This document shows positions 1-29,489 of a stretch of DNA of 29,489 bases, piece by piece (the stretch's first letter is position 1; each line of letters opens with the position of its first letter). Where the stretch lies: the IMG/VR virus record IMGVR_UViG_3300023184_000398, positions 1-29,489 of that record. One strand, given 5' to 3'. Origin of the DNA: a virus. The notes beneath the pieces are model-generated. The model ran no database searches. It saw only the letters and a program-made list of their open reading frames with translations, and was not told where the DNA came from. Made by a program: the position numbers and the translations under genes.

Positions 1-1570
1 CGAGTATGCCGTTGCAGGTACGACTGCAATAATCACAATTGGTGCTGGCGCCACAGGAACAAGAACAAGAGGAACAAGTGGGTCAAATAGTCTTTTTGAC
101 ACTGTTATAGCATATGGCGGCGGCGGTGGCGGCGGCGGTACAGACACTGGTGGTACACGAGATGGCGCACCAGGGGGCAGCGGTGGCGGCGGATGTTACA
201 TAGGTGGCGGTGGCGCAGCGATCCCGGCTGGTCAAGGTAATGTTGGTGGCGGTGGTCCTGGCGTTATAAGTCCATATCCAGGTGGTGGCGGAGGCGGCGC
301 AGGTGCCGCTGGCAGTAATGGATCGGGGTCAATTGCCGGTGCAGGCGGCATTGGACTGGATTGGCCCACTGGAACTGGAACCATTGGTGGTACAGCTATT
401 TGGGATACGACAGAGTTAATTGGCACAGGAGATCTAGTAGCAAAAACCAATGGTGGTTGGGGCAGCTTTATGAACGCTTATGCTGTGTGGCATACTAGCG
501 GTAGTTCAACTGTGGGAGTTGATCAAACCGTGACAGTTGCATTTCCATATACAGGATTATATGTTATACAGGCAGCAGCCGATAATGGCGTAACTGTTTA
601 CGTAGATGGAGTTAGTCGAACAAGTACTACCACGTATACCGGGTCAGTTACTGTAAATATAACGTTAACCAGCGGCAATCATGACATACGTACGGTGGCT
701 TACAATCTTGGTGGCCCAGGCGGCGTATCTGTTTTAATTGCCAGCGCAACTAGTAATTATTATGCTGGTGGCGGCGGCGCCGGCGTTAGAACAGGTGGAT
801 CGGGCGGCCTAGGTGGTGTAGGTGGAGGTGGTAACGGGGCTCTAGTGTCTAATACCAACGGAGGAAATGCTACGGCTAACTCTGGTGGAGGTGGTGGTGG
901 ATCAAGTCAATATACCAGCTTGCCCTATGGTGGCAATGGCGGTTCTGGCATTGCTAAGATTCGCTATTCAGATGTTTACCCAGAATCGGCAGCCACAGGT
1001 GCAACATATGCGTTAGCAGATGGATATAGAACATACACTTGGGCGACATCGGGCTCTATTGTGTTTTTTACTCCGTTTACCACAGTTGATTTAACATACG
1101 ACCCAACTTGGAGCGGCGGCAGCTTTACTGTTAGCGGAAATACAGTTACAACAACAGGGCAGTTTGCCAGCGTACTCTATGCTATAGTACAAACTACAGG
1201 TAAAATATATTTTGAGTTTACAGTAATCAGTGAGATTGGTGATGGATATGGCTGGTACGTGGGAGTTCAACGGGTACCTACTAGGGTAGGCAACTATCAT
1301 AACGGAACAAGTGGGAATGGAAACGGTGGCGCCGGAACAGCGTTTGGATCCATTGTGGCTACTCATACTTACGGAGTGCTGATAGATTTAGACGCACAAA
1401 CAGTATCATGGAATGGCGCCACCGCAGTAGCAATCCCGGGAACAGGACAACTTTACTTTGCAGTATATGATGGAACCAGTAGTGGTACTGGATCAGGCAG
1501 TATAAATTGGGGTACTAGTAGTTTTGTAAATACAGTACCAGCCGGCGCGATTCCTGCAGGATCGGTATGA
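1..1570 (+). CDS. Gly-rich phage adhesin with inserted lectin-like domain and SPRY-like C-terminus (5' partial)
   Basis: The frame is open from base 2 to the TGA at 1568-1570 (522 codons), so the start lies outside the window; the Met at 470 is internal. Domains by visible residue: 1-130 a Gly-rich region with long Gly runs; about 132-252 a beta-sandwich insertion with a WGSFMNAYAVW motif and a LTSGNHDIR motif, of the type found in phage fibre tips and resembling PA14/lectin folds; 253-345 the Gly-rich region resumes and closes with GGSGIAKIRY; 345-360 a capping motif GYRTYTWATSGSI; about 362-522 a SPRY-like domain (GKIYFEF, GYGWYVGV, YGVLIDLD, then a Pro/Ala-rich end). Known of such proteins: they form virion surface adhesins. 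Inference: a tail-fibre or capsid adhesin. The next gene starts 22 nt downstream. The domain names are motif-based calls. Confidence 0.9.
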   Translation, partial: EYAVAGTTAIITIGAGATGTRTRGTSGSNSLFDTVIAYGGGGGGGGTDTGGTRDGAPGGSGGGGCYIGGGGAAIPAGQGNVGGGGPGVISPYPGGGGGGAGAAGSNGSGSIAGAGGIGLDWPTGTGTIGGTAIWDTTELIGTGDLVAKTNGGWGSFMNAYAVWHTSGSSTVGVDQTVTVAFPYTGLYVIQAAADNGVTVYVDGVSRTSTTTYTGSVTVNITLTSGNHDIRTVAYNLGGPGGVSVLIASATSNYYAGGGGAGVRTGGSGGLGGVGGGGNGALVSNTNGGNATANSGGGGGGSSQYTSLPYGGNGGSGIAKIRYSDVYPESAATGATYALADGYRTYTWATSGSIVFFTPFTTVDLTYDPTWSGGSFTVSGNTVTTTGQFASVLYAIVQTTGKIYFEFTVISEIGDGYGWYVGVQRVPTRVGNYHNGTSGNGNGGAGTAFGSIVATHTYGVLIDLDAQTVSWNGATAVAIPGTGQLYFAVYDGTSSGTGSGSINWGTSSFVNTVPAGAIPAGSV

Positions 1571-1592: not shown

Positions 1593-4500
1593 ATGACGTT
1601 TCCAACTACACCAGCAGACACAACTACAGCAGTGGTAGACGGTATAACCTACATTTATTCTGCCGCAGATAATGCTTGGACCAGGATTGCGCAAGGTGTA
1701 CAAGGTACTGATACTGCATTTGTTATAGCAAACACCACAATAAGTTCAAGTACCGTCACTGGGGCGCTACAAGTAGCTGGTGGTGTAGGTATTGCTGGCA
1801 ATGTCTATATTGGCGGTAATGTTGTTGCCGGTAACGTAGTATCATTGGGTACTTACGCTGCTATCACTGGTGCCAATTTGATATCTACTGTAGATTTTGC
1901 TGCGTCTGGTAATGTTACAGTTACTGGAAATGTATACACTGACAACTATTTCTATGCAAACGGGACACCATATTACAATACCGGCCCGACTGGTTACACT
2001 GGTAGTTTTGGTGCAACAGGCCTTACTGGTGCAACAGGTGCAACTGGACCTACTGGTGCAACTGGACTTACAGGTGCAACAGGCGCAACTGGTATTAGGG
2101 GCGATTCTGGCTCATTTGGTGGCGAAGCATTTTCATATATATACAGCAGTGACATTACCTTAACTGATCCTCCTGCAGGAAACGTTGAATTTAATACTTC
2201 TACATTATCAGCCGCTACTTTACTGTATATTAACTTTTATGATGCGTCGGGTGCATCAACTTATAGTTTTTTACAGACCATTGATGACTCGACATCAACT
2301 ATCAAAGGGCACTTTAATGTAGTTGAAAGTGGAAATAATGCAAACTATGTAATGTTTGCAATCGTTGGTTCTCATACCGAAGAAGGAACACCTACCCCCA
2401 ACCATTTCCATGTTCCAATCTCTTATTTGTCAGGTCCAGGATCATTTACCAATGGCATGCCATTGGTAATTACGTTTGCAAGAACTGGTGATCGTGGCGA
2501 TACGGGCGCAACAGGATCAACGGGTGTGACTGGCCCAACTGGACCCACAGGTATAGGTGCTACAGGCGCCACTGGTGCAAGCGGTGCTAGCGGTGCAACT
2601 GGCTTAACCGGCGCCACTGGTATAACTGGTAATGTGGGTGCAACAGGACCCACTGGCATAACAGGCGCCACAGGGCCCAGTGGCCTAGCTGGTGCAAGCG
2701 GAGCAACAGGTGTCACGGGTGTAACTGGACCAACCGGAGTTGGTGCAAGTGGAGCAACAGGCGCAACTGGCCCTACTGGTATAACTGGTAATGTGGGTGC
2801 AACAGGTGAACCAGGATCAACAGGCGCAACAGGGCCTACAGGTATAACAGGTGGAGTTGGCGCTACTGGAGCAACAGGTGGAGTTGGCGCTACTGGTGTA
2901 ACAGGAGCCACTGGTGCCACAGGTGTCACTGGCTATACTGGATCAATTGGTGCCACAGGCGCAACCGGAGTCGGTGCAACGGGCGCAACAGGTGCAAGCG
3001 GCACAATAGGTTACACAGGTAGTGCTGGCACCGGCGGCGGCGGTGGTGGTAACAGCACCACAGGCAGCAGCCCACCAGTATCGTCCTACCTAGGTGATCT
3101 ATGGTACGATACCACACGTGATGTATTATTGCGCTATACTGATGTAGGCGTTGGCACCAACTTTTGGCTTGACCTAACTGGTCCTATATACAACTTTGGT
3201 GTAGTAGCAACCATAGCCACCATAGTAGCACCCACAATCGAATACTTGGTTGTTGCTGGCGGCGGATCGGGTGCCGGCTACGCAGGTGGTGGCGGTGCCG
3301 GTGGATATCTAGCAGCCTCCGGTTATGCAATAACAGCGGGCGCGAATATCACTATCACAGTTGGCGGCGGCGGAGCAGCGGTAACAAACGTAGCTAACGA
3401 TGGTAACAATGGTAACCCTTCATCTATCAATGACAATCTCAATTACTCGGGTAGCTTTAACGGCACTAATCAATATTTAAGTCTACCAATTAATGCAGCA
3501 TTTAGTTTTGGTACAGATAATTTTACGGCCGAAGCCTGGATTTATACAACTTTACCCGGTAATACATATGGTAAAACTATTTTTGATGCTAGACCAGACG
3601 ATATCAATGGAGCCTATTGGACCATTGGTATAACTCCATCGGGAATACTTAATGCTACTACTATGACAACTGGGGGAGCGACCTTAGCCGCACCCAGCGT
3701 GATGCCTTTCAGCCAATGGGTTCATGTTGCCTTTACTAGAGCATCGGGTGTTCTTAATTTGTGGGTCAATGGCGTATCTGTTGCATCGGCTAGTGGAAAT
3801 TCAGATAACATTAGCTCTAATGGTTTAAAAATAGGTGCTAATGCTTTCAGGAATTCCGGAGCCTCAGATACATATTTTAATGGATATCTCTCTAATGTTC
3901 GTATAGTAAAAGGTGTAGCAGTCTACACTGGCACATTTACCCCACCTGCTAGATCACTAACTGTTACTCAAAGCAGCGGAACAAACATCAGTGCTATCAC
4001 TGGCACACAAACCAGTTTGTTAACGTTAAAAGGTTCGTCAATAGTAGATACTTCTACTAATGCATTTAGTATTACCAATAATGGTGCAGTGTCGACAACT
4101 AATTCACAATCACCATTTATACCCCTAGCGTTTGGTGGTGGCGGTGGCGGTGGCTACGGCAATGCTGGTAAAGCCGGCGGTTCAGGGGGCGGTGGTGGTA
4201 TTGGTAGTGGAACACCAGCCGGCGGTGCCGGTGTCACTGGTCAAGGGCGTGCAGGTGGTGCCGGTGGTAACTACAATAACCCTTACCCAAGTGGTGGCGG
4301 TGGCGGCGCTGGCAGCTCAGGTGGAGCCGCAGTTGGCAGCACACAGTCGGGTGCTGGTGGCATTGGCAATATTGCTACTATAATTACAACCACAATCGCA
4401 TCTGCACTGAACATTGGTCAAGTGGTCAGCACTGATGTTTATTTTGCTGGTGGCGGTGGCGGTGGTATTGGATATGGTGCCGCTGGCATAGGTTTGGGCG

Positions 4501-4754
4501 GTTACGGTGGCGGCGGCAACGGCGGCAACACTGGTACAGGTGTAAACGGTGGATCCAATACCGGTGGCGGTGGAGGTGGCCAAGGTTACAATTCTGGAAG
4601 TGCAGTGGGCGGGGCAGGTGGTAGCGGTGTAGTTGTTATTCGTTATCCAGATGCCTACGCCGATGCTGTATCAACTACCAATTGTGCAGATATCAGAACA
4701 GTGGGTGGATATAAAATATACACCTGGAAAACCAGCGGAACAATAACTTTTTAA
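1593..4754 (+). CDS. Collagen-like phage fibre with Gly-rich/LamG tip
   Basis: 1,053 aa. Domains: residues 1-30, the FPTTP...[10 protein letters not shown]-terminus common in marine phage fibres; about 47-120, a [19 protein letters not shown] repeat; 130-173, a first Gly-X-Thr collagen-like tract; about 176-296, a beta domain ([17 protein letters not shown] ... [13 protein letters not shown]) that I know from cyanophage collagen fibres; 298-480, a second, long collagen-like tract; about 501-528, a GDLWYDTT...W motif; 551-612, the first half of a Gly-rich domain (EYLVVAGGG); about 616-840, one LamG-like domain plus linker; 846-1025, the second Gly-rich half ending [13 protein letters not shown]; then a [11 protein letters not shown] cap. 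Likely a trimeric virion fibre. No Shine-Dalgarno is visible; the start follows an ACTAATA leader. The role is inferred from architecture. Confidence 0.93.
1980..2112 (+). repeat. Collagen-like Gly-X-Thr tract 1
   Basis: About 44 residues of nearly uninterrupted Gly-X-Y triplets, mostly G-A-T, G-L-T and G-P-T, ending at a GIRGDSG exit sequence. Thr is the dominant Y residue, where Pro/Hyp would sit in animal collagen. Codons vary at third positions (gca/gcc, act/aca), so this is a protein repeat rather than a recent DNA expansion. Probably a triple-helical stalk. Confidence 0.9.
2484..3035 (+). repeat. Collagen-like Gly-X-Thr tract 2
   Basis: About 180 residues of Gly-X-Y triplets starting at [11 protein letters not shown], with rare breaks ([19 protein letters not shown]). 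Larger units recur: the stretch ITGNVGATG(P/E) appears twice and [10 protein letters not shown]-like units are tandem, suggesting internal duplications. The tract ends in [15 protein letters not shown] before the GDLWYD motif. Confidence 0.9.
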
Positions 4755-4769
4755 GCAAGCGACTAATAC

Positions 4770-6344
4770 ATGGCATTCCTAAGTTCACCAAGTAACGGGC
4801 AAGTAATAACAGTAAATGGCATCAGTTATACCTACAACGGTACTAACAATGCCTGGTACCGCACTGGCCCCACCACAGCCAATGTGGTTACCACAGTAAC
4901 TGCCAACGTTACCAGTAACACTGCCAGCACCAGCACTACTTCGGGCGCACTCACTGTTGGTGGCGGCGGCGGGTTTGCAGGCAATGTCTACATTGGCGGT
5001 CAATTGGTCACCACTGGCGGTGTATTCTGGGCTAACGGAACAGCATTCAGCAGTGGTGGCACAGGTGGTGGGGGCGGTGGTGGGGGCGGTGCCTACTATT
5101 TCTCCGACACAGCGCCTGTTGGTGCAGTAGCTGGCGACAGATGGTTTGATACCACAGTTGGCATATTGTTTACCTACACCGATGATGGTTCTAGCACACA
5201 ATGGGTTGAGGCAGCAGCCAGCGGATTCTTAGGACAAACTGGCTACACTGGTAGCATTGGCGATCTAGGATATACGGGCAGCGTGGGGTATGTTGGATCG
5301 GCTAGTACAGTGGCTGGTTATACCGGTAGCGTGGGCGCAGGCTACACTGGTAGCGTTGGTCAATTGAGCTACACTGGAGTTGTTGACAATTTTACTGGTA
5401 ACGGATCCGCGGTGGCTTTTACACTGAGCGTTACGCCAAGAAACATAAACAATACTACCGTTAATTTAAACGGTGTAATACAATTAAAGAGTTCGTATAC
5501 CGTATTAGATAACGTGCTGACATTCAGCGAAGCACCGCCTGTTGCGGCAGCAATTGAAATTACCACACAGGTATATGGCCCAGCATATACACCGTTCTTG
5601 ACACGGTTGTATACCAGCAGTGGCGGCAATACATTCACAGTCAGCAATGGTGTGACCAACGACAGTGTGTTGGTCATGGCCAATGGTGTAGTACAGCGTC
5701 CAGTAACTGATTACGCAATCTCAGGCTCAACGCTAACCATGGCGGGAACTGTCAGCCCCGGAGTAGTTATACACATAAGAGAATTGCCTGGTGCAATTCA
5801 AGGTGACACTGGTTACGTTGGTAGCACAGGAAGTTTGGGCTATACTGGTAGTACCGGCATTGGCTACACTGGATCAGCCAGCACAGTGATTGGCTACACT
5901 GGTAGTCAAGGTATTACTGGTGCAGTTACCTACACAGTAACATCACCTGGTACATCGGCTTTTGTGATTAATGGAGCAAGCAATCCTACAATTACATTGG
6001 CCCGCGGCTACACCTACTATTTTGATGTTGGATCCGAAGGATTCATTATTAAAACCATTGGTACCACCGGAGCCAGTAATTATTACAATTCGGGCGTAAC
6101 TAATAATGGTGGATCAAATTCCAGAGTAACATTTACAGTTCCGTATGATGCACCTGCTACACTGTATTATGTGTCATACACATACAGTAGTATGGTGGGG
6201 GTATTTCAAATATTTGATTTGGGACAAATGGGATATTCAGGTAGCGTGGGATACGCTGGTAGTGCTGGTGCAGGATACACCGGCAGCTCAGGAGGAATTA
6301 CATCAGGAAGGGCCATTGCAATTGCAATGGTATTTGGAGGATAA
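4770..6344 (+). CDS. YTGS-repeat tail fibre with cupredoxin-like domain
   Basis: 524 aa. Order: 1-32, an N-terminal module (SSPSNGQVITVNGISYTYN) like that of the upstream fibre; 56-77, TTSGALTVGGGGGFAGNVY; about 100-108, a Gly run; 122-146, GDRWFDTTVG...W; 157-204, YTGS repeats; 205-340, two tandem copies of a fibre beta domain (FTGNGSAVAFTLS ... VNLNGVIQ; then NTFTVSNGVTNDSVLVMANG); 345-387, more YTGS; about 388-482, a domain of the NPTITLARGYTYYFDV ... FTVPYDAP ... YSSMVG type, which in related phage proteins resembles a cupredoxin; 487-510, a last YTGS tract and a short C-terminus. Likely a thin virion fibre. No Shine-Dalgarno; an ACTAATA leader ends 1 nt before the ATG. Confidence 0.92.
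   Translation: MAFLSSPSNGQVITVNGISYTYNGTNNAWYRTGPTTANVVTTVTANVTSNTASTSTTSGALTVGGGGGFAGNVYIGGQLVTTGGVFWANGTAFSSGGTGGGGGGGGGAYYFSDTAPVGAVAGDRWFDTTVGILFTYTDDGSSTQWVEAAASGFLGQTGYTGSIGDLGYTGSVGYVGSASTVAGYTGSVGAGYTGSVGQLSYTGVVDNFTGNGSAVAFTLSVTPRNINNTTVNLNGVIQLKSSYTVLDNVLTFSEAPPVAAAIEITTQVYGPAYTPFLTRLYTSSGGNTFTVSNGVTNDSVLVMANGVVQRPVTDYAISGSTLTMAGTVSPGVVIHIRELPGAIQGDTGYVGSTGSLGYTGSTGIGYTGSASTVIGYTGSQGITGAVTYTVTSPGTSAFVINGASNPTITLARGYTYYFDVGSEGFIIKTIGTTGASNYYNSGVTNNGGSNSRVTFTVPYDAPATLYYVSYTYSSMVGVFQIFDLGQMGYSGSVGYAGSAGAGYTGSSGGITSGRAIAIAMVFGG
5238..6297 (+). repeat. Three blocks of (G)YTGS repeats
   Basis: Blocks lie at 5238-5382, 5802-5930 and 6228-6297. The unit is Gly-Tyr-Thr-Gly-Ser plus 1-4 residues (GYTGSVG, GYVGSAS, GYSGSVG), punctuated by a conserved SASTV(A/I) spacer. 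They separate the folded beta domains of this protein like flexible or collagen-like stalk segments. Confidence 0.88.
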
Positions 6345-6711: not shown

Positions 6712-8379
6712 ATGAGCAAGAGATATCCTGGCGGAATAATTTCAGGATCAAATTATAATCCTACCTCTTCCAGTGGTAGCGGGTTTTGGACTTTATCTCA
6801 GCAGTTGCAAAATAAACAAGCAGGTGTCTGGCCAGGTCCTGGCCAATTGTTAATTGACTATATTATAGTTGGTGGCGGTGGCGGAGGGGGTACAGGTGAT
6901 GCTGCTCTAGCTTGGCAAGGCGGTGGGGGCGGTGCCGGCGGTGTTGTGGTCAAAACCGGATTCATTACATCAACCGGATCATATACAGTTACTATAGGTG
7001 CAGGCGGACCAGCGATTGTTTTAAACAGTGGTAATAGTACTGCTGCGCTATCCACTGGATTAAGTTCAACATTTAATGGATTTACTGCATTGGGTGGAGG
7101 ACAAGGCGGCGGCAGTTACACCACGGGCACCGGAGTTCCGCAAGCATTACTGGCTGGAGGGTCTGGTGGAGGCATGTCGGGCATTGGCGCAGGTGCTGCT
7201 AATCAACCATCATCTGCCAGCGGCGGACTAGGCTTTGCAGGAGGCGCTGGTGGTGCAGCTACATATTCCAGTGGTGGCGGCGGAGCAGGCGGAGTTGGAG
7301 GGCTCGGAATTACAACTGCATCAGGGCAAGGTGGAGTTGGATATACTTGGTTTGATGGAAATACATATGCCAGTGGTGGCGGTGGTGGTGCTGCTGGAGC
7401 CACAGTTACTAATGGATTAGGTGGAGGCCAGTCTGGGGCACTATTATTCAATGGCAGCAACTATCTAAGTGCAACCAATGCAGGAGGCTGGGTCAGCAGT
7501 GACCATACAGTTGAAGCTTGGATGTATATAACTACAATGCCAGACCCAGCAAACGCAAATCAGTACATCCGGGCATCTGCAATTGCAGCCGAAGGCGATG
7601 GTGCTAGTAATGCCACGTGGCAATTTTACTTTCAACCCAGTGGGTTAACTGTTGTTTATAAAGCAGTTAACAATACACTATATTTTGTCTCTGCTGGATA
7701 CACTTTCTCAACATTGACTTGGTATCACGTAGCATTTTCAAGATCGGGTACTACTGCTCGATTATTTGTTAATGGTGTACAGATTGCCACTGGAACAGTA
7801 CCGGCTTGGACATCTCGGACTATATTACAGATTGGACGTGGTGCTACATCAAGTTACACATATCCGTTCTATGGTTACATTACCAATTTTAGAATGGTAA
7901 ATGGTATAGCAGTATACACTGGCAATTTTACTCCGCCGGCGGGCCCATTAACTGCGGTGCAAGCTGCTAATCCTTTTGGTGGCAGTAATGTTGCCGCAGT
8001 TACAAGTGGCACTACTTCTGTATTATTAACAGCCTTATCATCGGCTGCTGCATTTACTGATACTGGTGCCTTTGGATATACTATAACCAACGTTGGTTCT
8101 GTAACATACTCTACATTATCCCCAATTACAGCCGCTGGTGTTGGCGGCGGCGGCCGCGGTGGTAGTGTTCTCAATGCTGTGGCAGCAACAAATGGTATTG
8201 CAAATTCGGGAGGGGGCGGTGGCGGTAGCTACTATGATAATGTTCCAGGTGCAGGCGGTAGTGGACTAGTTGTTGTCAGATATCCTGGTTCTGCGGCCGC
8301 GGCCACTGGAGGAAATATAAGTATTAGTGGCGGTTATGTTTATCATGCATTTACTACCAGCGCGGCGTTTGTTGTGTAA
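6712..8379 (+). CDS. Gly-rich adhesin with one inserted LamG domain
   Basis: 555 aa. The N-terminus MSKRYPGGIIS matches the start of the giant protein that follows (MAKKFPGGLIT), a shared virion-attachment type. Residues 48-240: a Gly-rich domain beginning IDYIIVGGGGGGG. Residues 243-475: a LamG-like jelly roll (ALLFNGSNYLS, HTVEAWMYI, WYHVAFSRSG, LFVNGVQIA, FYGYITNFRMVNG, AVYTGNFTPP) with its downstream linker SVLLTALSSAAAFTDTG. Residues 478-525: the Gly-rich domain resumes and closes GGSGLVVVRYPG; then a GGYVYHAFTTS cap. GAGGA at 6696-6700 is the likely ribosome-binding site, 11 nt upstream. LamG folds commonly bind carbohydrate or protein ligands; adhesin is an inference. Confidence 0.92.
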   Translation: MSKRYPGGIISGSNYNPTSSSGSGFWTLSQQLQNKQAGVWPGPGQLLIDYIIVGGGGGGGTGDAALAWQGGGGGAGGVVVKTGFITSTGSYTVTIGAGGPAIVLNSGNSTAALSTGLSSTFNGFTALGGGQGGGSYTTGTGVPQALLAGGSGGGMSGIGAGAANQPSSASGGLGFAGGAGGAATYSSGGGGAGGVGGLGITTASGQGGVGYTWFDGNTYASGGGGGAAGATVTNGLGGGQSGALLFNGSNYLSATNAGGWVSSDHTVEAWMYITTMPDPANANQYIRASAIAAEGDGASNATWQFYFQPSGLTVVYKAVNNTLYFVSAGYTFSTLTWYHVAFSRSGTTARLFVNGVQIATGTVPAWTSRTILQIGRGATSSYTYPFYGYITNFRMVNGIAVYTGNFTPPAGPLTAVQAANPFGGSNVAAVTSGTTSVLLTALSSAAAFTDTGAFGYTITNVGSVTYSTLSPITAAGVGGGGRGGSVLNAVAATNGIANSGGGGGGSYYDNVPGAGGSGLVVVRYPGSAAAATGGNISISGGYVYHAFTTSAAFVV

Positions 8380-8391
8380 AATGGATCAATA

Positions 8392-11300
8392 ATGGCAAAA
8401 AAATTCCCAGGTGGACTAATAACTTCAACTACAATATATCCGGCAGATGGTGGAGTTTGGACCACGGCCGACACTGCCAAATATACAGGTGCAGATACTT
8501 GGACCACAAATGATCCCTATAGAAAAAGTGTTATTTTAGAAATACAAGCTGATACCACAGCACCAGTATACAATACCGATGCTAGTTCAAACGCACTAAC
8601 CGTTGTCCCAGCTGGCTCTGCTCGCCCAGATTTAAACAATCCATTCTTGCCAACTACTGGTCTTAACTATCCAGTCTATTTTGGTGGTGCTGCTCAATTG
8701 ACAACAGCCGCAAACTCTGCTGCTTTTGCCACTGGAGTAGGAGATTTTACAGCAGAATGCTGGATATATATTAGCACACCCGGTATAGCAACTGAAGCAA
8801 TTGCCAGCACCACTGCTGGGGGTAGTAATGCTGGATGGCACTGGTATATCAGTAACACCAATGGCATGGGTATACGCAGTAACAGTAGTAATTGGGTACT
8901 ACCACCAAGTGCTGGGCTTCCGGGTTCAGCCGGTTACATACCAACTAACAGTTGGATGCATGTTGCTTATACCAGACGTGCAAATGTGCATGCCTGTTGG
9001 ATGAATGGCACATTAACAAATAGTGCAACTCAAACAGTCAGCTGGACAGACAACGTGCTAATGATTGGAAATAGCAACACTGGTCAATTCTTTAATGGAT
9101 ACATTAATAACTTTAGATTTGTCAACGGTGTTGCACTATATGGAGCATCAGTGCCAACTACCCTGGCTGCCAATGTAACAGGAACATCGCTATTACTAAA
9201 TGTAACTTCTGCGCCAACCTATATCACAGATTCCAGTGCCAATGCATTTACAGTGCTCAACCCAGCAACGTATCCAATCACCTACAGCACACTAACACCT
9301 GTGGACGCTGGTGGTAGTCTAGTAACTGCCAATTTGGTTTATCAACAATTGTTTACCAGCAATGCAACTTGGGTATGCCCTGCGGGTGTTACCAGTGTGT
9401 CGGCGGTAGCCGTTGGTGCAGGTGGCGGTGGCAACTCAGGCTGGAGTGGACACAATGGCTACTCTGGTGGCGAGGGCGGTGGCGGGGGTGGCCTGGGATG
9501 GCGAAATAACATCTCAGTAACACCAGGAACCAGTTATACTGTTGTTGTTGGTTCAAGAGGGATTGGTGGCCCAAGTTCATTAGGCAGCGGTGGTGTGAGC
9601 ATAGGTGGTGCCGGTGGCGACAGTTACTTCATTAATAGAACAACTGTTTTAGGTGTTGGCGGCAGCGGCGCCATTAATAACACCGGCGGCGCTGGCGGAT
9701 CATTTCTTGGTGATGGTGGCGGCCTCGGTGGTACTGGCGGAACAACAGCCACTGGAGCCACATTCGCTACTGCCGGCGGGGGCGGAGGTGGTGGATACAC
9801 TGGTGCAGGCGGTAACGGCATGTTTGGGCCAACTGGTAACGTTACTACAGCAGGTACAGGCGGAGGCGCTGGCGGCGGCTTGGGGTATTATGCTGGCAAT
9901 GCACCTTACCCCATCGGCACCGGTGGCGGCGGTGTTGGCGTACTTGGGCAAGGAACCAGTGGTAATGCAGCACCTGGGCTAAACCAAGAAACTTTTGGTG
10001 GATCGGCCGACTATGCACCGGGCGGCGCACTGTTTTTTAATGGTTCTAGTAGTTATTTGACTGTGCCTGCCAATGCAGCATTTAGTTTTGGAACTGGTGA
10101 TTTCACCATGGAATGTTGGATATATACAAGAAGTTTGGCTGCTACTCAACAAACTATTGATCTATTTAGCAATGCATCTGGATCATACATCGTTGGCCAA
10201 TGCCAACTTCAATTGTTAACTACTGGAGCAGTTGCTCTTGGTTATGCCACTGCCGCCTCCGCTGCTACCTTTTTTGGCACAGCAGCATCGGCAGTGACTA
10301 TAAACTCTTGGTATCATATTGCTGTGGTTCGTTCGGGCTCTGCCGTTGGAAACTTAAAAATTTATGTAAACGGCGTGCTTGCAGCAACCAGCCCAGGAGC
10401 ATTGACCCAAGCCTTTGGTACCACTGGTGGAATATCAATTGGTAGACAAACAAATGATTCTAGTAACGTCTTTTCTGGATACATAACTAATGCACGTATA
10501 GTCAAAGGTGTTGCAGTCTATACAGGCAACTTCACACCACCCACTGCGCCACTGACTGCTACCCAGACTGGTAACCCAATACTCAACATTCAAGCAATTG
10601 CAAGTTCAAGTTCAACATCATTATTATTGTTGTCTGCAAACAGTGCCGCATACATAACTGATTCAAGCACAACACCCAACACCATAACCAACACCGGAGT
10701 TATCTATAGATTAACAACACCATTTGGCACCGGCAATGGTGGTGGCGCCCGTGGTTGGGCAGTAGGAGCACCCGGCGGCATAACTACACTGGGATATAAT
10801 CCCGGCGGCGATTTTGGTGGTGGCGGTGGTGGTGGCAGTGATAACAGCGGCCAAGCACCTATAGGTGGTTATGGAGGCCAAGGCGCAGTACGTATAATAT
10901 GGGGACCAGGCAGAAGTTTTCCTAATACGCTGACCACAGATCAAAGTCTAAACATACAGTATCTACAGGTGGCAAATAACGCTGCCTTCCAAGTCGGTGC
11001 TGGCGACTTTGCAGTAGATCTTTGGATATATCCAACTACCGTAGTTGGGCTACAGCGAGTATTCTCCATTTCAAATAGCACAATCGCTAGCAATGCAGAC
11101 GAAGGCATTGTTCTTGAACTGAATAATGCTGCAATGACTGCAACCATATATTCAGGAGTTACTGCTTATACTATCACAGAATCCGCAGGTGTACTATCAC
11201 CAAACACATGGTACTATTATCGATTAATACGCACAGGTACCACATTGTCGTTGTATAGGACCGCCGGACTCAGCGGTTCGGTAGCAGTGTCAACTGTATC

Positions 11301-14300
11301 AGTCAACTGGTCTGCCAGCTTCCAAACCTATATAGGTGCTTGGATAAATGGACCCAGCAGACCATTCGTTGGATACATTACCAACATTCGTGTAGTTAAA
11401 GGCACGCTGGTAATTGTCACTGGCAACTTTACACCATCAACTGTGCCGTTGACAGCCGTACAAGATTTAAACGTAAACGGATTTCCGTCAGCTGCAATCA
11501 CAGCCGGTCAAACTAAATTATTAGCATTGCAGAATAGCACGTTTGTTGACAATTCTGGAAATAATTTAACTTTAACAAATACCAATGCTGCCATTAGGCC
11601 CACTCAAGCTCGTGCGCCGTTTGCTAGTGCGTTAACATTGTCTGGCGATAATGCTACACTGGGTTCAACTTATTTTAACGGTACTACAGATTACTTTACC
11701 ATTGCAGATGCACCTGAGTTTAATATTGGAGTATTGAATACTACACTAGAAGCTTGGATATGGACCACGCTAACTACTCCTACTGGAGCTGTGTTTGCCA
11801 AGCGTGGCACAACAGCATTATTTTCTGGTTACCAATTGGCATTTGCAAGTACACTTGCCCCGGTGTTTAATGCCAGTACCGATGGTGCAACTTGGACGGT
11901 TGCAATTACCTCAAATGCGTCTATTAAGGCCGGACTATGGAATCACGTGGCGGTTACTAAATCTAGTAATACGTGGTCACTGTGGGTCAACGGTAATATA
12001 AGCGGTACTGCAACAGTTGCAGGAAATGTACATACCAACGTGGCACCATTATCAATTGGTAGTGGTGCAGGAACCACGCCAGGTTTATATTGGACCGGCT
12101 ATATTAGCAACTTCCGTAAAGTATTAGGCATTGCAGTATACACTGGTAATTTCACTCCGTCTACGTCATCACTGACATCAACACAAGCATCTGGAACTAA
12201 TATTACTGCAATTGATCAGCCAGTGGTAAAAAATTACAGTGTGTATTTGAATGGTGTTAACCAGTACTTGACTGCACCAAACAATGCCGGCTATGTATTT
12301 GGTGCAGCTGAGTTTACAGTTGAAACTTGGATATATGTTACAGATATAACCAGAGCTAATGCAAGTATTGTGAGTTTGTGGACCACTGCTGGCGGCAAAG
12401 CATTCCAAATGCGTACAATGAGTGGCAACATACGTGTAGATTATAACACTACACTATTTCAATCATCGCCGTCTAGTGTAATTGCAGCCAATACCTGGTA
12501 CCATGTAGCATGGGTCAAATCAACTGCAAACTCTAATGTTTATCTCAATGGGTCGTTGGTTAGTTCGGTTGCAGCCCCGGTTAGTATCACAGCGTCCACT
12601 GCGCTATTGTCGGTGGGCTTTGGACTTGATGGACAGGGTACTACTTATTATTTTCCTGGCTATATTAGCAACATGAGATTGGTAAAAGGCACAGCAGTTT
12701 ACACAGCCAATTTTACACCTGCCAGCGCAGCACTAACATCATCACAGACAGCTGATCAAAATGGTGTACCATCACGTGCTATTGTTGGTGCCGGCTCAAC
12801 ATCTTACAGCTATTCGTTTAGTGGTAGTAACTATTTGACAATTCCTACTAGTACAACATTCCAATTTGGGACAGGTAATTTTACTGCCGAAGCTTGGGTT
12901 TATAGATCAGTGGCCTGGACAGCACAAAACATATTTTTTGGACAATGGTCTGGATCTACTGGCGGTACAACTCTGTCTTGGGTGGTTTTGACCAGCAATG
13001 ATACAAATGGATATGCTAGATTTGCATTATCCGTTGACGGGTCAACAGTACTAACAGATAGTGTATCAAGCTCGGTTATAGCGTTAAATCAATGGAATCA
13101 CCTGGCGTTTGTTAGAAATGGCAATACGTTTACCCTATACCTAAATGGTACTTCGGTTGTAACATATTCAAGTGGTACACCCAGTCTTTATGCTGCAACA
13201 AATACCATATCCATTGGAGCATCCAGCGCAGGTACACAACCATTCACTGGCTATATAAGCAATTTTAGGATTGTTAAAAGCATAGCAGTTTACACTACTA
13301 CGTTTACGCCAGCTACGGCCTCGTTGACTAACGTACAAACAGCCAATCAAAATGGATTACCATCTGCTGCTATCACCTATGCCACCGCTTACAGTGGAGC
13401 GTTTAATGGTTCGACACAGTATCTATATGTACCAGGAACCAATCCGCAATTTGCTTTTGGCACTGGTGATTACACAATTGAAATGTGGATATATCAAAAT
13501 GCTCGTTCAATAAATTATGGAAATTTATACGATTCTCGACCGGCTGGAACCAGTAGCAGTGCTAGTCATCTTGGGTTTGGTGTAGATCCAGCCGGTGCTA
13601 TTTTTGGCAGTACAATTTCTCTTAAAACTTGGTATCACGTTGCGCTTGTTAGAGTGGGAACATTGCAGACTGGATATGTCAATGGTGTAGCAGTCTCTAG
13701 CGTCACTGATACTACAAATTGGTTAAACGGCACTGATAGACCAATATTTGGTACAGATGGTAATGTTCCATTATCGCCTGGCTATATTTTCAACGGTTAT
13801 ATTACTAATTTACGTGTAGTTAAAGGAGTAGCAGTATACACTGGCAACTTTACAGTACCAACCTTGCCACTGGCAACTACACAAAGTTCTAGCAGTAGCA
13901 TAGCAGCTATCACCGGATCGCAAACCAGCATGTTAACATTACAAGGCGCAGCTATAACAGATGCAAGTGCATATGTAAACACAATCACCAACGTTGGTGG
14001 CACAACAACATCTTTATTAAGTCCAACCTTACCACCAAAATACTACTATGCAAGTTTTACTGGTACTACTACTTTGAGTCTACCATTTACATCTAATTTT
14101 GTATTTCCTGGTGATTTCACAGTTGAAGGTTGGTTCTATTTTAACTCATTGCCTACTGGTTCAAATCAAGTTTATTTGGTGGGAGATTGGCAAGCTAGTT
14201 CAAACCAACGATCGTTCTTATTGGCTGTAACATACTCTGGAGGACAGAAAATAAATTTTCTAATTAGTATAGATGGCTTAACTGGAGTTGGTAGTACATT

Positions 14301-17300
14301 TGATCTGGTTGTAAATTGGCCAGCAGCAACTATTAATACATGGTACCATATTGCAGCGGTAAGGGTGTCGGGTTCGGTTAATATATATGTTAATGGTGTA
14401 GCACAAACAAGAACTACAAATGATATTACGACACAAACAAATTTTAACTCTGGTGTAGGCGGGCAAATAAACATTGGCGCAAGTGCATATAGTGCTGTTT
14501 ATTTTAACGGTTATATGTCCAATCTCCGTATAGTAAAAGGTGTTGCAGCCTACACTGGCAACTTTACACCGCCTACCGTTCAATTATCTACTATACAAAC
14601 TGCCGGCAGTAATATAGCTGCTGTTACCGGAACACAGACCAGCTTGTTAATTTTGCAAAATTCCACTATTATAGATAACAGTGCAAATTCAGCAACAATA
14701 ACTAATGCTGGTGGCATTTCAATTGCCACCGACATTACACAAATTCCAGCTTATGTAATAATATTAACTGCGCAAGCAGCAACCATTGTAGACAATAGTA
14801 CACTGCCAGTGTCCATCACCAATACCGGTACAGTAACCAGTATTGCAGTTAATCCATTCACCAGTACCACCAGCTTGCTAATAGCTCAGTCTAGAACTAT
14901 TGTTGACACCAGCGGCGGCGCTATTGCTATTACCAACCAAGGTGTAACCGGCGTTAGCGTGAACAATCCATTTACTGCCTATGCCGGTACCAGTGTATTG
15001 ACCAGTCAGTACAACGTATCAAATAATAACAATTTCTTCTCAGACAACAGTTTTAATAACTATTTAATTGTTAGAGCAGGCACTGCTACTCAAGGCTCAG
15101 TGAATCCGTTTGTAACTGGTTGGAGTTATCAATTCAATGGATCCACCGACTACTACACAGTAAGCACTGCCATTGAGTGGGCATTCTTACATAATGGCAT
15201 TGAAGATTGGACTGTGAGATTTTGGGTATATCCAAGAAGCTCATCACTAATGGTTCCGCTGTCCACAACCAACGTGGCTGGGCAAACTGGAATCAGTATC
15301 GAACTTAACAATACCACCTATGGTGGTGTAACTGGCAGCATGTCTGTGGTGTTCTTTAATGCCACAGGTAGCGCCGTTACTAACCCGGCATTCAATTCAA
15401 ATCCAGTAGTGGTATTAAACCAGTGGAACTACATAGCAGTCTCTTTTACAGCCAATACAAAAACAGTTGGTTTTTATATTAACGGTCTAGCAGCTGGCTC
15501 AAGCAGCTTACCATCGTTTGTGTACAATACTGCGGCGCCAACTAACACATTAAATATTGGAAGAAATCCAGCCGGAACTGCGTATTTTTCAGGATACATA
15601 TCCAACTTACAAATTGATAAAGGTGTCCAGTCTACACTACAACCAATTGCGCCACTAACCACTGTGGCAGGCACCGGCACATACAGTGTATTATTCAATG
15701 GCTCTACATCTTATTTGGCAACATCAGTCTTGGCAACAAGACTTTTAACCAGTGACTATACCGTTGAGGCATGGATTTATCCTACTGCTGCTGCAACTGG
15801 TACTACATACGCTACGTCTGTCAATATACTAGGCGCCAACTCGGGAGTTACCAGTTATCAAACTTGGGGCATTACCAATGCTGGATATATCGTAGCTGCA
15901 AGAGATGGTCTCAGCTATCAGACCATAACAGCAACAACACCCAGTTTAAACACTTGGACACACATTGCATTTGTAAATAGATCAAATACAGTGACAGTAT
16001 ACCTAGCAGGAAACCGTGTGGGCAGCATAACTCAAACTGGAACCTGGGGTATAACAGCTACTGATACCATCATTGGTGGCTGGGGCGGAACGGGCGGAAA
16101 ATTTACTGGACATATATCTAATCTGCGTATAATAAACGGACAAGGATTGTATACTGCGAACTTTACTCCATCAACATCAGCACTGAGCAGTACGGCACTT
16201 AACTTCACTTATATTTTCTCAGCATCCTATCTGATATCAGCAAATGAAGTAGCATTGCAGCTAGGCACTGGTGACTTTACAATCGAGTCATGGGTATATT
16301 ATACCACAACCGTTGGACCAACTTACTTTGTTGGAACCGGATTGGGTACTGGCACATATAGAATTGGTGTTGACAATGCAACTGGCGCAGTTGTATTTTA
16401 TTCAGGTAACAATATATTATTAATTACTACTCCTAATACTACAACAATTAATACATGGGCATATGTGGCTGTAGTAAGATCTGGTAGTGTGACAACCGCA
16501 TATGTCAACGGTCAAGCAGCAACAAGTGCCATTGATACTGCAAACTATTCAATTGGAGTAACTGCAATTGGATCAGGGAGTGCAACAACCACATCGTCGT
16601 GGGCAGGATATATAACAAATCTTCGAATAATAAAAGGCGCAGCAATATATCGATCTACCGCTTTTACAGTTCCTACTAGCGAGCTAACATCAATAACTCA
16701 ATCTACTGCGCCTTATAGCGTATACTTAAACGGCAGCAGTTATCTAACCGCTACCAGTAATAGCTTTGTCATGGGCACTGGAGACTTTACAGTAGAGTGC
16801 TTTGTATGGGTTGACCCTGCAGCCGATAGTCTAGCAGGTATCGTAACCGGCACAACTCAAACAACTTCAGGTTTTGTACTTGCACGTAACGGTGCTGGTA
16901 TGGCTAATGCAAATGGCGCAGGCGCAAATATCATGCCATGGACAATACCAACTAGTACTTGGACACACGTTGCATTAACCATGCAATCTAATAGATTATT
17001 TGCTTTTATCAATGGTACTTTTATCAGCTCATTGGCAGCTACATTTTCCAATTTGTCTAACACTGTTCGATTGGGCAGTAGATACGCAGATTCTAATCCG
17101 TTTCCGTTTATTGGTTACATAAGTAATCTTAGAATTCTAAGTGGTGTTGCACTATATACCACAGTTAATTTCTTACCGCCAACAACATCATTAACTGCTA
17201 TTGCTAATACAGTATTTTTAACTGCACAATCAGCTACTGCAATTGATAATAGTACCAATGCCATTTCAATAACTGCCACTGGCAATCCTGCTTTTAACAG

Positions 17301-18870
17301 TGGCGGCAGCTCGATCCCGTTTGGATCTACAAGTTTATTAGCTGTTGGTGCTGGCCCATGGGGTATTAACTTTACCAGTACTGGATCAGTGAACGGCACA
17401 ATAACAGTTAATCCGTTTGGTGCTGGGGTTACTAGGTTATTAACAGCTAGTTCGGCCACAATTGTGGATTCTGGCTATAGTGCTTATACTGTAGTCAACA
17501 ATGCAGCCACAGTGTCGACGGCGAGTCCGTTCGCAGCTGGTACTAGTTTATTAACTTTAAAAGATAGCTATGCAGTGGATCAATCAGTTTATGCCAGAAC
17601 ATTAACCAGGGCAGGTACACCCACTGTTGAAAACTTTTCACCATACCCGCCAGCTGGCAGTTGGTCAAATTCTGCATACGGCGGAACCGTGGTACTAAAT
17701 GGTACCACAGATTATTTAAATTTACCAGCCAGCTCGTTGGTATTGGGCATAAGCAATTTTACATTAGAATGTTGGTTTTATTCCTTTGGTCTACTAACTG
17801 CACAGCCTAAATTAATTGACAACTTTATTGGTATTGCAGCAGCATTCCAAACTGGGCAATGGCAGCTGGGATTTAGTGCCACTGGACTTTTACAATTTGG
17901 TTATGCCACCGGTGTTAGTACCACAGTATATGTAACCGGAACTGTTGCACTATTACCAAATCAATTTTATCATGTGGCTGTAGTTCGTACCGGGACTGGT
18001 ACAAACCAAATAACTATATATGTCAACGGAGCAGTCTATGCCCAAGGCACAATAGCTGACAGCTTTGGTGTCGCTGGTACCACTACGGGCGGCAGTATTG
18101 GTCGTCAAACCGGTAGTAATACACTATTTTTCAATGGCTATATAGGCGGTATTCGACTAGTCAACGGTACTGCACTGTACACCAGTGCATTTACACCACC
18201 TGCTGCCCCTCCGACTACGGTTGCAAATACTGCATTATTAATTGGCAATACTGTAACTTCTGCTATTAACGATCCTTCATCAAGGAGCGCGATCAGAAGT
18301 GTAGCAGGCGCAGCACAAGTGGTCAACTCAGTTTACCGGTATGGCACAGGATCTGTTTATTTTAACGGATCTAGTAACTACCTAACAGTACCCTACTCGG
18401 ATGTCAAGTTTAACTTTGGTGCTGTATCTGATTTTACTATTGAATTTTGGATGCGCGCCGCGGCATTACCAGGCACAACTGCACAGTTATTTGACACTAG
18501 ACCGGCATCAACTAACGGAGCGTATCATAATATCTATTTAAGCAGTGACGGAACTGTTAGATATTATGTCAGCACAGCAGACAGGATTACCAGTACAGCC
18601 AGCGCAATTGCTATTAATACATGGTATCATATTGCTCTAGTACGTTATGTTAATACCACTACTTTGTATATAAATGGCGTAGTAGCCGGTACACCATGGG
18701 CCGATACCACAGCATACGTTAGCGCAGCAATAGTGCTAATAGGTGCCAGCTACAGCGGTGGCGCAGCAATAACCAACTATTTCAACGGTTACATTGATGA
18801 TTTACGTGTAACCAAGAGTGTGGCCAGATACACCGGTGCATTCACTCCACCTAGCAAGATAGTTTCTTAA
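8392..18870 (+). CDS. Giant multi-LamG virion adhesin (3,492 aa)
   Basis: An uninterrupted 10.5-kb gene. N-terminus MAKKFPGGLIT, then a linker-type segment (about 44-85), LamG 1 (about 92-303), a Gly-rich domain (304-545, starting at TWVCPAGVTSVSAVAVG), LamG 2 inserted in it (546-782), Gly-rich closure with GAVRIIWGPGRSFP (783-850), then LamG 3 to 14 to the C-terminus. Each unit shows F-NG-(S/T)-YL, (F/Y)T-E-WIY, WYH-A-VR, (Y/F)VNG and F-GYI-N-R-VKG-AVYTGNFTP. No signal peptide or membrane segment is seen. The size suggests a long flexible surface fibre; LamG domains point to glycan or protein binding. No Shine-Dalgarno: the ATG overlaps the stop of a 3-codon mini-ORF at 8381-8392. Even base use and the single open frame argue against a chimera. 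Confidence 0.95.
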   Translation: MAKKFPGGLITSTTIYPADGGVWTTADTAKYTGADTWTTNDPYRKSVILEIQADTTAPVYNTDASSNALTVVPAGSARPDLNNPFLPTTGLNYPVYFGGAAQLTTAANSAAFATGVGDFTAECWIYISTPGIATEAIASTTAGGSNAGWHWYISNTNGMGIRSNSSNWVLPPSAGLPGSAGYIPTNSWMHVAYTRRANVHACWMNGTLTNSATQTVSWTDNVLMIGNSNTGQFFNGYINNFRFVNGVALYGASVPTTLAANVTGTSLLLNVTSAPTYITDSSANAFTVLNPATYPITYSTLTPVDAGGSLVTANLVYQQLFTSNATWVCPAGVTSVSAVAVGAGGGGNSGWSGHNGYSGGEGGGGGGLGWRNNISVTPGTSYTVVVGSRGIGGPSSLGSGGVSIGGAGGDSYFINRTTVLGVGGSGAINNTGGAGGSFLGDGGGLGGTGGTTATGATFATAGGGGGGGYTGAGGNGMFGPTGNVTTAGTGGGAGGGLGYYAGNAPYPIGTGGGGVGVLGQGTSGNAAPGLNQETFGGSADYAPGGALFFNGSSSYLTVPANAAFSFGTGDFTMECWIYTRSLAATQQTIDLFSNASGSYIVGQCQLQLLTTGAVALGYATAASAATFFGTAASAVTINSWYHIAVVRSGSAVGNLKIYVNGVLAATSPGALTQAFGTTGGISIGRQTNDSSNVFSGYITNARIVKGVAVYTGNFTPPTAPLTATQTGNPILNIQAIASSSSTSLLLLSANSAAYITDSSTTPNTITNTGVIYRLTTPFGTGNGGGARGWAVGAPGGITTLGYNPGGDFGGGGGGGSDNSGQAPIGGYGGQGAVRIIWGPGRSFPNTLTTDQSLNIQYLQVANNAAFQVGAGDFAVDLWIYPTTVVGLQRVFSISNSTIASNADEGIVLELNNAAMTATIYSGVTAYTITESAGVLSPNTWYYYRLIRTGTTLSLYRTAGLSGSVAVSTVSVNWSASFQTYIGAWINGPSRPFVGYITNIRVVKGTLVIVTGNFTPSTVPLTAVQDLNVNGFPSAAITAGQTKLLALQNSTFVDNSGNNLTLTNTNAAIRPTQARAPFASALTLSGDNATLGSTYFNGTTDYFTIADAPEFNIGVLNTTLEAWIWTTLTTPTGAVFAKRGTTALFSGYQLAFASTLAPVFNASTDGATWTVAITSNASIKAGLWNHVAVTKSSNTWSLWVNGNISGTATVAGNVHTNVAPLSIGSGAGTTPGLYWTGYISNFRKVLGIAVYTGNFTPSTSSLTSTQASGTNITAIDQPVVKNYSVYLNGVNQYLTAPNNAGYVFGAAEFTVETWIYVTDITRANASIVSLWTTAGGKAFQMRTMSGNIRVDYNTTLFQSSPSSVIAANTWYHVAWVKSTANSNVYLNGSLVSSVAAPVSITASTALLSVGFGLDGQGTTYYFPGYISNMRLVKGTAVYTANFTPASAALTSSQTADQNGVPSRAIVGAGSTSYSYSFSGSNYLTIPTSTTFQFGTGNFTAEAWVYRSVAWTAQNIFFGQWSGSTGGTTLSWVVLTSNDTNGYARFALSVDGSTVLTDSVSSSVIALNQWNHLAFVRNGNTFTLYLNGTSVVTYSSGTPSLYAATNTISIGASSAGTQPFTGYISNFRIVKSIAVYTTTFTPATASLTNVQTANQNGLPSAAITYATAYSGAFNGSTQYLYVPGTNPQFAFGTGDYTIEMWIYQNARSINYGNLYDSRPAGTSSSASHLGFGVDPAGAIFGSTISLKTWYHVALVRVGTLQTGYVNGVAVSSVTDTTNWLNGTDRPIFGTDGNVPLSPGYIFNGYITNLRVVKGVAVYTGNFTVPTLPLATTQSSSSSIAAITGSQTSMLTLQGAAITDASAYVNTITNVGGTTTSLLSPTLPPKYYYASFTGTTTLSLPFTSNFVFPGDFTVEGWFYFNSLPTGSNQVYLVGDWQASSNQRSFLLAVTYSGGQKINFLISIDGLTGVGSTFDLVVNWPAATINTWYHIAAVRVSGSVNIYVNGVAQTRTTNDITTQTNFNSGVGGQINIGASAYSAVYFNGYMSNLRIVKGVAAYTGNFTPPTVQLSTIQTAGSNIAAVTGTQTSLLILQNSTIIDNSANSATITNAGGISIATDITQIPAYVIILTAQAATIVDNSTLPVSITNTGTVTSIAVNPFTSTTSLLIAQSRTIVDTSGGAIAITNQGVTGVSVNNPFTAYAGTSVLTSQYNVSNNNNFFSDNSFNNYLIVRAGTATQGSVNPFVTGWSYQFNGSTDYYTVSTAIEWAFLHNGIEDWTVRFWVYPRSSSLMVPLSTTNVAGQTGISIELNNTTYGGVTGSMSVVFFNATGSAVTNPAFNSNPVVVLNQWNYIAVSFTANTKTVGFYINGLAAGSSSLPSFVYNTAAPTNTLNIGRNPAGTAYFSGYISNLQIDKGVQSTLQPIAPLTTVAGTGTYSVLFNGSTSYLATSVLATRLLTSDYTVEAWIYPTAAATGTTYATSVNILGANSGVTSYQTWGITNAGYIVAARDGLSYQTITATTPSLNTWTHIAFVNRSNTVTVYLAGNRVGSITQTGTWGITATDTIIGGWGGTGGKFTGHISNLRIINGQGLYTANFTPSTSALSSTALNFTYIFSASYLISANEVALQLGTGDFTIESWVYYTTTVGPTYFVGTGLGTGTYRIGVDNATGAVVFYSGNNILLITTPNTTTINTWAYVAVVRSGSVTTAYVNGQAATSAIDTANYSIGVTAIGSGSATTTSSWAGYITNLRIIKGAAIYRSTAFTVPTSELTSITQSTAPYSVYLNGSSYLTATSNSFVMGTGDFTVECFVWVDPAADSLAGIVTGTTQTTSGFVLARNGAGMANANGAGANIMPWTIPTSTWTHVALTMQSNRLFAFINGTFISSLAATFSNLSNTVRLGSRYADSNPFPFIGYISNLRILSGVALYTTVNFLPPTTSLTAIANTVFLTAQSATAIDNSTNAISITATGNPAFNSGGSSIPFGSTSLLAVGAGPWGINFTSTGSVNGTITVNPFGAGVTRLLTASSATIVDSGYSAYTVVNNAATVSTASPFAAGTSLLTLKDSYAVDQSVYARTLTRAGTPTVENFSPYPPAGSWSNSAYGGTVVLNGTTDYLNLPASSLVLGISNFTLECWFYSFGLLTAQPKLIDNFIGIAAAFQTGQWQLGFSATGLLQFGYATGVSTTVYVTGTVALLPNQFYHVAVVRTGTGTNQITIYVNGAVYAQGTIADSFGVAGTTTGGSIGRQTGSNTLFFNGYIGGIRLVNGTALYTSAFTPPAAPPTTVANTALLIGNTVTSAINDPSSRSAIRSVAGAAQVVNSVYRYGTGSVYFNGSSNYLTVPYSDVKFNFGAVSDFTIEFWMRAAALPGTTAQLFDTRPASTNGAYHNIYLSSDGTVRYYVSTADRITSTASAIAINTWYHIALVRYVNTTTLYINGVVAGTPWADTTAYVSAAIVLIGASYSGGAAITNYFNGYIDDLRVTKSVARYTGAFTPPSKIVS
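14602..15111 (+). repeat. Cluster of four LamG-linker motifs without LamG domains
   Basis: After LamG 8 the linker motif (S-LL-L-x-IVD-S-x-ITN-G-x-NPF) occurs four times in a row instead of once: 14602-about 14748 (SLLILQNSTIIDNSANSATI), 14755-14859 (ending VNPF), 14860-14973 (ending NNPF) and 14974-15111 (ending VNPF). Unit lengths are about 35-49 residues. Confidence 0.75.
17206..17652 (+). repeat. Second cluster of four LamG-linker motifs
   Basis: After LamG 12, four linker-type units follow head to tail: 17206-17322 (FLTAQSATAIDNSTNAISIT, ending IPF), 17323-17418 (a degenerate copy ending VNPF), 17419-17532 (RLLTASSATIVDSG, ending SPF) and 17533-17652 (SLLTLKDSYAVDQS, ending SPYPP). Only then does LamG 13 begin. 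Confidence 0.72.
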
Positions 18871-24331: not shown

Positions 24332-24358
24332 GTTAGATTGATCTACACTATTATTGAG

Positions 24359-24366
24359 TATAAATA
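24359..24366 (+). promoter_or_regulatory. T4-type late promoter box 2
   Basis: A second exact TATAAATA, 35 nt downstream of the first and 29 nt before the ATG at 24396, a typical spacing for a late promoter with a short leader. AGGAG at 24380-24384 is the ribosome-binding site. Confidence 0.68.
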
Positions 24367-28417: not shown

Positions 28418-29489
28418 GTGTCTGCTATACTATCCAATCTTGATCTAGTTGTCAATCGTCTCACGACGATAACTGTTGTACAAAGTGATTCCTCATTGGT
28501 CAAGACCACAGTGGGGCTCAATCTCAGTGAAACTAGCGTATTCACCCAAAGCAACATAAGATCAATATCTACAACTCCGGTATTGGCGAATGTTATAACC
28601 ACAATTGGGTATGCTGGTGCTAATATTGGTCAGTCAATTTACATTATAGATGATGATGTCACTAGCATAACTGCCAACGCAAACAGTTTTGCGGTCACTG
28701 GTGCAACAACAGTATTTGGCGGGGGATTAAATTACACATATGGTAACATAGTTTCAAACGTTAGTGCATATGCAACAGTAACTTATACCACCCCCGGCAC
28801 TTATACTTGGACTTGCCCTGAGGGTGTAACCAGTATAAGTATGGTAGGTGTGGGCGGGGGCGGGGGTGGCCAACAAAAAGCTGCTGGCGGCACAGGCGGC
28901 GCTGGAGGCTTAATTGATTACTATAATGCTTATGCAGTGACTCCTGGTACCAGTTATACCATTGTTGTGGGCGGGCGTGGCGCACCGGGAACCAGCGCTG
29001 GTGATAACGGAGACGCAACATATTTCATTGATGCCTCGGCAACTGCACCTGCAATATATGCAGCTGGAGGAACCGGCGGCGGCAACATGAGTTGGTTAAC
29101 TGGTGGTACCAGTGGTAGTATTATCAATAGCACATATTCTTCAATTGATACGTTTACTGCACAAGACTCCAATGGCGGAACTATAACTTACAGTGTCGCT
29201 AATGGTCCAACCGGTTTAGTAATAAATGCATCTACTGGTGTAATGTCTTATAGCCAACAATCAAGTCCCTCTCTGTCTGATGGTTACCTTATTACAATTA
29301 ATGCAACATCAACTAGTGGCAGCAGTATTGATAAATTTTATACATTGACATTCGCTGCTGAATCTTATTTGTACTATCTATTAGTAGCCGGTGGTGGTGG
29401 CGCAGGCGCAGATGGCTCAGTATCTGCAGCCAGTCCGGGCACAGGAGGTGGTGGTGGTGTGGTGTTGGGATCAATTGGGATAACATCGT
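28418..29489 (+). CDS. Gly-rich adhesin interrupted by putative-Ig domain (3' partial)
   Basis: Open from GTG 28418 to the window edge (357 codons, no stop). Residues 1-125: a unique N-terminal part (SAILSNLDLVVNRLTTITVV ... YIIDDDVTSITANANSFAV). Residues about 126-225: the start of a Gly-rich domain (TPGTYTWTCPEGVTSISMVG, then Gly runs, TPGTSYTIVVGGRG). Residues about 236-305: an Ig/cadherin-like insertion of the He_PIG type (FTAQDSNGGTITYSV, GPTGLVINASTGVMSY, GYLITINATSTSGSS, FYTLTF). Residues about 311 onward: a new Gly-rich start (YLYYLLVAGGGGAGA) running off the end. Likely a virion adhesin like those at the left of the window; the C-terminal domains are outside. Confidence 0.88.
   Translation, partial: MSAILSNLDLVVNRLTTITVVQSDSSLVKTTVGLNLSETSVFTQSNIRSISTTPVLANVITTIGYAGANIGQSIYIIDDDVTSITANANSFAVTGATTVFGGGLNYTYGNIVSNVSAYATVTYTTPGTYTWTCPEGVTSISMVGVGGGGGGQQKAAGGTGGAGGLIDYYNAYAVTPGTSYTIVVGGRGAPGTSAGDNGDATYFIDASATAPAIYAAGGTGGGNMSWLTGGTSGSIINSTYSSIDTFTAQDSNGGTITYSVANGPTGLVINASTGVMSYSQQSSPSLSDGYLITINATSTSGSSIDKFYTLTFAAESYLYYLLVAGGGGAGADGSVSAASPGTGGGGGVVLGSIGITS

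Follow-up and report, generated by a model that had tools for sequence, protein, structure and literature searches.

The window, by which we mean the whole stretch of DNA analysed here, is a virus record of 29,489 bases that opens with ORF1, a gene for a fibre protein lying among collagen-like fibre genes. The features of ORF1 and of the neighbouring proteins that bear on its interpretation are as follows:

2..1570 (+), ORF1: fibre protein of 579 aa, with 522 residues visible in the window, 5′ end open; in order, leader, first Gly-rich half, PA14-like insert, second Gly-rich half and C-terminal domain
2..397 (+), first half of the Gly-rich scaffold, which starts on contig G001; from PF21722 and alignment to intact scaffolds
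398..757 (+), PA14-like beta-sandwich insert: aa 133-252, 120 aa, IWDTT...SATSN
758..1072 (+), second half of the Gly-rich scaffold with its closing strand: YYAGGGG...GGSGIAKIRY...TSGSIVF
1088..1567 (+), C-terminal domain: 160 aa, found alone with the leader in the ortholog at locus L066
1593..4754 (+), ORF2: collagen-like fibre protein with a LamG-bearing Gly-rich module (Pfam Collagen, Laminin_G_3, Gly_rich_2)
3429..4076 (+), LamG in ORF2: 216 aa, in loop A of the Gly-rich scaffold
6712..8379 (+), ORF5: Gly-rich protein with LamG
7426..8130 (+), LamG in ORF5: 235 aa, in loop C of the scaffold
28418..29488 (+), start of a protein of the 1471-aa type: incomplete Gly-rich module, Ig-like segment and start of the next Gly-rich module
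29114..29362 (+), Ig-like segment: linker between two Gly-rich modules, called Ig by sequence pattern only

The 57 N-terminal residues missing from ORF1 were found at locus L008 on contig G001 (86,775 bases); G001 and the window share an overlap of 144 nt in which three mismatches occur, all of them silent. The window and G001 are collinear with adjoining parts of contig G007 (199,181 bases), to which the window is approximately 90-96% identical across most of positions 4964-29489, and this overlap, collinearity and identity indicate that the contigs come from one phage or from nearly identical ones. The major capsid protein on G001 is of T4 type, with 65-69% identity to those of jumbo phages (CBB type and others), and the contig also encodes portal, sheath, baseplate wedge and baseplate hub proteins, on the basis of which the phage was assigned as a T4-like jumbo myovirus. 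The G001 part of the ORF1 gene scores 35.2 bits against Gly_rich_2 (PF21722), above the gathering score of 24.3, and the window part alone gives 13.6-19.5 bits, which is under this cut-off; the second half of the scaffold was assigned from a weak match to PF21722 positions 132-225 and from alignment to the intact scaffolds of L066 and contig G008. No Dit domain was seen in Pfam or PHROG scans of ORF1, and tblastn of the whole of ORF1 against phage records at default settings gave no match, this search being informative only with the insert alone as the query. The AlphaFold model of full-length ORF1 is poor (pLDDT 46.9), and no claim is therefore made on the geometry of the scaffold or on display from it. 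The C-terminal domain, which the initial annotation had left out, is conserved and is also present in L066:3971-4519, L067 and L068; an SPRY identity, proposed for it by eye only, was rejected as the domain has no Pfam or PDB match.

That annotation had described, at 395-760, a PA14/lectin-like beta-sandwich carrying WGSFMNAYAVW and LTSGNHDIR motifs, distinct from LamG and placed between two Gly-rich halves, and had proposed structure prediction as a check. The extent was almost exact, alignment to an intact scaffold giving nt 398-757; the first motif is present from nt 458, the second also lies within the insert, and the segment has no match to LamG (PF13385) in the Pfam scan. AlphaFold, using 20 related phage sequences, returned a confident all-beta sandwich for the insert (mean pLDDT 85.7, pTM 0.80), and Foldseek matched this model to CBM35/CBM6 modules and PA14 adhesin lectins in the PDB (E 8e-5 to 1e-3, at a TM of only ~0.45) and to cyanophage PA14-domain proteins in a viral library (TM ~0.7), so that by both methods the insert has a PA14-type beta-sandwich fold. 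Sequence profiles agree with this, well beyond chance: the family profile matches PA14 lectins among PDB sequences (E 2e-6 to 3e-4), with PA14 and Pleurotus lectins at E 2e-6 to 1.5e-5, in an alignment spanning the D-N/D-D strand and the N..GGPaG loop, and PHROG 773 with an E of 2e-13. PA14 (PF07691) is the best Pfam match of the window copy at 18.7 bits, below the 24-bit gathering score; the sister copy at L002 exceeds the cut-off with 26.3 bits, and PA14 matches at E<=0.01 were obtained for 12 of the 20 members of the family. PA14 lectins have been described as having a D-cis-D calcium motif (PMC6650083), which is incomplete in the window copy, where it reads D-N; L003 and L007 have D-D, and the candidate sugar-site loops of the family carry a conserved D and an invariant N. 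The D-N motif and the Pfam score below cut-off, combined with the lectin matches, point to a PA14-related domain as opposed to a canonical PA14.

Relatives of the insert were found at 34 loci in viral contigs, most of them in large proteins of virion type where no glycine-rich sequence flanks the domain, and no relative was confirmed in a scan of bacterial genomes with this family. This distribution marks the PA14-like domain as a movable module found mainly in aquatic phages. At L002, L003 and L007 it lies inside a Gly-rich protein type that PF21722 missed there, and at L004 it precedes a Gly-rich module in tandem. A weak second PA14-like match on G008 (48728-48958, E 2e-5), in a 1369-aa protein, sits outside any Gly-rich module.

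The relationship of the PA14-like unit to the surrounding scaffold was examined by aligning ORF1 to intact scaffolds with one free jump allowed. Against a G008 protein of 329 aa, which scores 65 bits as a complete Gly_rich_2, the score was 456 with the jump and 316 without it, the jump dropping exactly the 120 residues IWDTT...SATSN and the alignment resuming at YYAGGGG; against the intact scaffold of L066 the corresponding scores were 414 and 270, and in intact control scaffolds a forced jump lowers the score. As the glycine-rich flanks align in several ways, the edge of the insert may be off by as much as about 18-26 template positions. The survey of Gly-rich proteins which the initial annotation had called for was conducted as a DNA-pattern sample of YLVVAGGG scaffolds, defined by a single start motif, in place of an intact-scaffold alignment scan that returned only four loci, probably due to glycine-rich masking; a search with the joined Gly-rich halves returned only the neighbouring contig G001. 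The survey yielded at least 100 scaffold instances in at least 80 viral contigs, and among the matches listed none of the 90 other scaffolds long enough to judge contains an inserted domain. A low-glycine stretch was observed in 8 of the 90, again among the matches listed, but six of these scaffolds total only 257-276 aa, while the remaining cases are a 507-aa protein with two scaffolds in a row and a 473-aa protein with a C-terminal extension. Given these unfilled scaffolds and an orthologous locus that is empty, the segment is not an ordinary part of all members of the family, the outcome that the annotation had named as contrary to its reading, and the alignments support the PA14-like unit as a true insertion in the Gly-rich scaffold.

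The empty locus is L066 on G008, a contig from the same metagenome as G001. Here the syntenic gene specifies just 183 aa, the leader (MALTVTGITLSGGI...) being joined to the C-terminal domain, and the whole Gly-rich/PA14 block is absent; the ortholog is 67% identical over the matched region and DNA homology resumes on both sides. It follows that ORF1 contains a nested cassette, in which the lectin-like domain lies in the scaffold and the scaffold between leader and C-terminal domain. G007 is without the ORF1 gene, the place of which is occupied by one long collagen-like fibre gene, and domain swapping between related phages is well supported. A diversity-generating retroelement was rejected as the source of variation, as no reverse transcriptase was found in the four contigs. 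The fibre gene of G007 (1720 aa, 120962-126121) matches pieces of several genes at window positions 1593-6344, and Gly-rich cassettes separate the corresponding window pieces.

Interrupted scaffolds also occur in neighbouring proteins, where one-jump alignment places LamG in the first loop (A) in ORF2 and in the third (C) in ORF5. The L066 counterpart of the ORF2 Gly-rich module is uninterrupted. ORF5 has a 98% identical copy in G007, and its ortholog in G008, the above-mentioned protein of 329 aa, shares the N-terminus and gene order and is without LamG; one-jump alignment against this ortholog sets the edge of the ORF5 LamG with a tie region of 4 residues. The initial annotation had counted at least three unrelated folds inserted in this region, the third being an Ig insertion at the right edge. 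The LamG and PA14-like insertions stand, but the Ig-like segment has a truncated Gly-rich module before it and the beginning of another after it: in the full-length version in G007 the preceding Gly-rich module ends prematurely, and the sequence following the segment scores 169 as a scaffold start as compared to 146 as a continuation after loop A and 98 after loop B. Ig as a third inserted fold was rejected on this best score, the margin of which is modest in glycine-rich sequence, and with Ig as an inter-module link the inserted folds in the window number two, not three. The accompanying view that different folds occupy different loops of one scaffold type is upheld, with LamG at A and C and PA14 elsewhere. 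In the 1471-aa protein of G007 a LamG block lies in the second Gly-rich module, at loop B with one of two templates, and this block was left out of the evidence. On G008 (L083, 43096-47676) a 1527-aa protein has a Gly-rich module broken by a segment of ~75 aa without a Pfam match, which may represent a further inserted fold. The window also harbours, at 8392-18870, an ORF of 3492 aa in which 14 or more LamG domains follow one another in tandem; its G007 counterpart, at 3732 aa, is about one LamG longer, and LamG copy number thus seems to vary.

We consider it likely that ORF1 is a tail-fibre-region protein of a T4-like jumbo phage, the Gly_rich_2 module of which acts as a split display scaffold for a host-binding lectin. 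The chain would exit the scaffold at a surface loop, fold as a PA14-type lectin domain and then return to complete the scaffold, and the lectin would project from the fibre on the virion and bind host-surface glycans. Related phages may exchange the whole Gly-rich/lectin cassette, or the lectin alone within it, presumably by recombination; altered receptor binding, with a possible effect on host range, may reasonably be expected in view of the lectin folds and the fibre setting. The broader proposal, that Gly_rich_2 serves phages in general as a display scaffold, any of its defined loops being able to take up whole lectin domains of unrelated folds, and that this jumbo group employs it as a combinatorial receptor-binding platform, is put forward tentatively, and we would place it somewhat short of an even chance.

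Other explanations were weighed against the split-scaffold reading. The PA14-like domain might be an ordinary part of the Gly-rich family that was lost in some members, and the data indeed show presence and absence only, with no direction of change; this is nevertheless highly improbable, as all 90 surveyed scaffolds are unfilled among the matches listed, the full-length Pfam model fits the uninterrupted ortholog of ORF5, and the domain is mostly found in proteins without any Gly-rich module. It is also very unlikely that the Gly-rich/PA14/C-terminal cassette arose as a fusion of three neighbouring proteins and not by loop insertion: while the stand-alone gene for leader plus C-terminal domain in L066 and the tandem PA14 and Gly-rich module in L004 would agree with such a fusion, the halves of one scaffold flank the PA14 unit in the correct order, and the alignment jump is clean. 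A different question is raised by the occurrence of family members in many virion structural proteins (PHROG 773) and by the asparagine found in the window copy for the second aspartate of the calcium motif, both of which would suit a module that spaces or stabilises the fibre and does not bind the receptor. We regard such a role as rather unlikely, since the conserved D and invariant N fall on the candidate sugar-site loops, the nearest solved relatives by sequence are lectins, and the presence/absence variation is more in keeping with a role in specificity than with a structural role.

The proposed split scaffold has parallels in several known systems. The PA14-domain virion proteins of cyanophages (PHROG 773) share family (E 2e-13) and fold (TM ~0.7) with the insert, although in the loci read they carry the domain outside Gly-rich scaffolds, unlike ORF1. 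RTX adhesins have PA14-type lectins that emerge from 'split domains' (PMC12077191, PMC6650083), and ORF1 would similarly project a lectin of the same fold class from an interrupted host domain; there, however, the host is the Ig-like split domain of a bacterial adhesin, whereas in ORF1 it is a phage Gly_rich_2 scaffold and the D-cis-D motif is incomplete. The evolved Dits of siphophages have a CBM placed in a loop of the galectin domain (PMC9692632), likewise a carbohydrate-binding-type module in a loop of a phage tail protein, which is an analogy of mechanism only; their host is a galectin domain in the baseplate ring, as opposed to a Gly-rich fibre module which receives two folds in several loops. 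From these evolved Dits and RTX split domains the insertion strategy is already known, and the new part is the Gly-rich scaffold. The polyglycine sandwich of S16 gp38, a possible counterpart of Gly_rich_2, has loops between glycine-rich motifs, the variable ones of which have been proposed to bind receptors, and illustrates that host specificity can reside in loops of such a sandwich (PMC6851490), but S16 gp38 varies short loops, whereas here loops hold whole domains. Domains are also known to be present or absent, and to be exchanged, among related phages; in the tail-fibre example described it is C-terminal domains that are exchanged, while the exchanged domain is here nested inside another. 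A 'Glycine-rich domain-containing protein' of an uncultured Caudovirales phage, A0A6J5L362, matches the insert in Foldseek (TM 0.70) and, as judged from its name and this fold match, is probably an already deposited example of the same Gly-rich and PA14-like combination; no description of it as an insertion was found.

Related fibre modules that occur naturally both with and without an insert offer near-isogenic proteins for studying the gain of binding specificity, and suggest that a very common and unexplained glycine-rich phage domain tolerates insertion of whole domains. The analysis also helps in annotating many aquatic-phage entries labelled 'PA14 / major head protein', which are likely to be virion proteins that bear lectins. 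Elsewhere in the window, two adjacent ORFs (24354-26237, 627 aa, and 26519-28408, 629 aa) look like paralogs, sharing stretches such as FSAxGRDxLGRIW.
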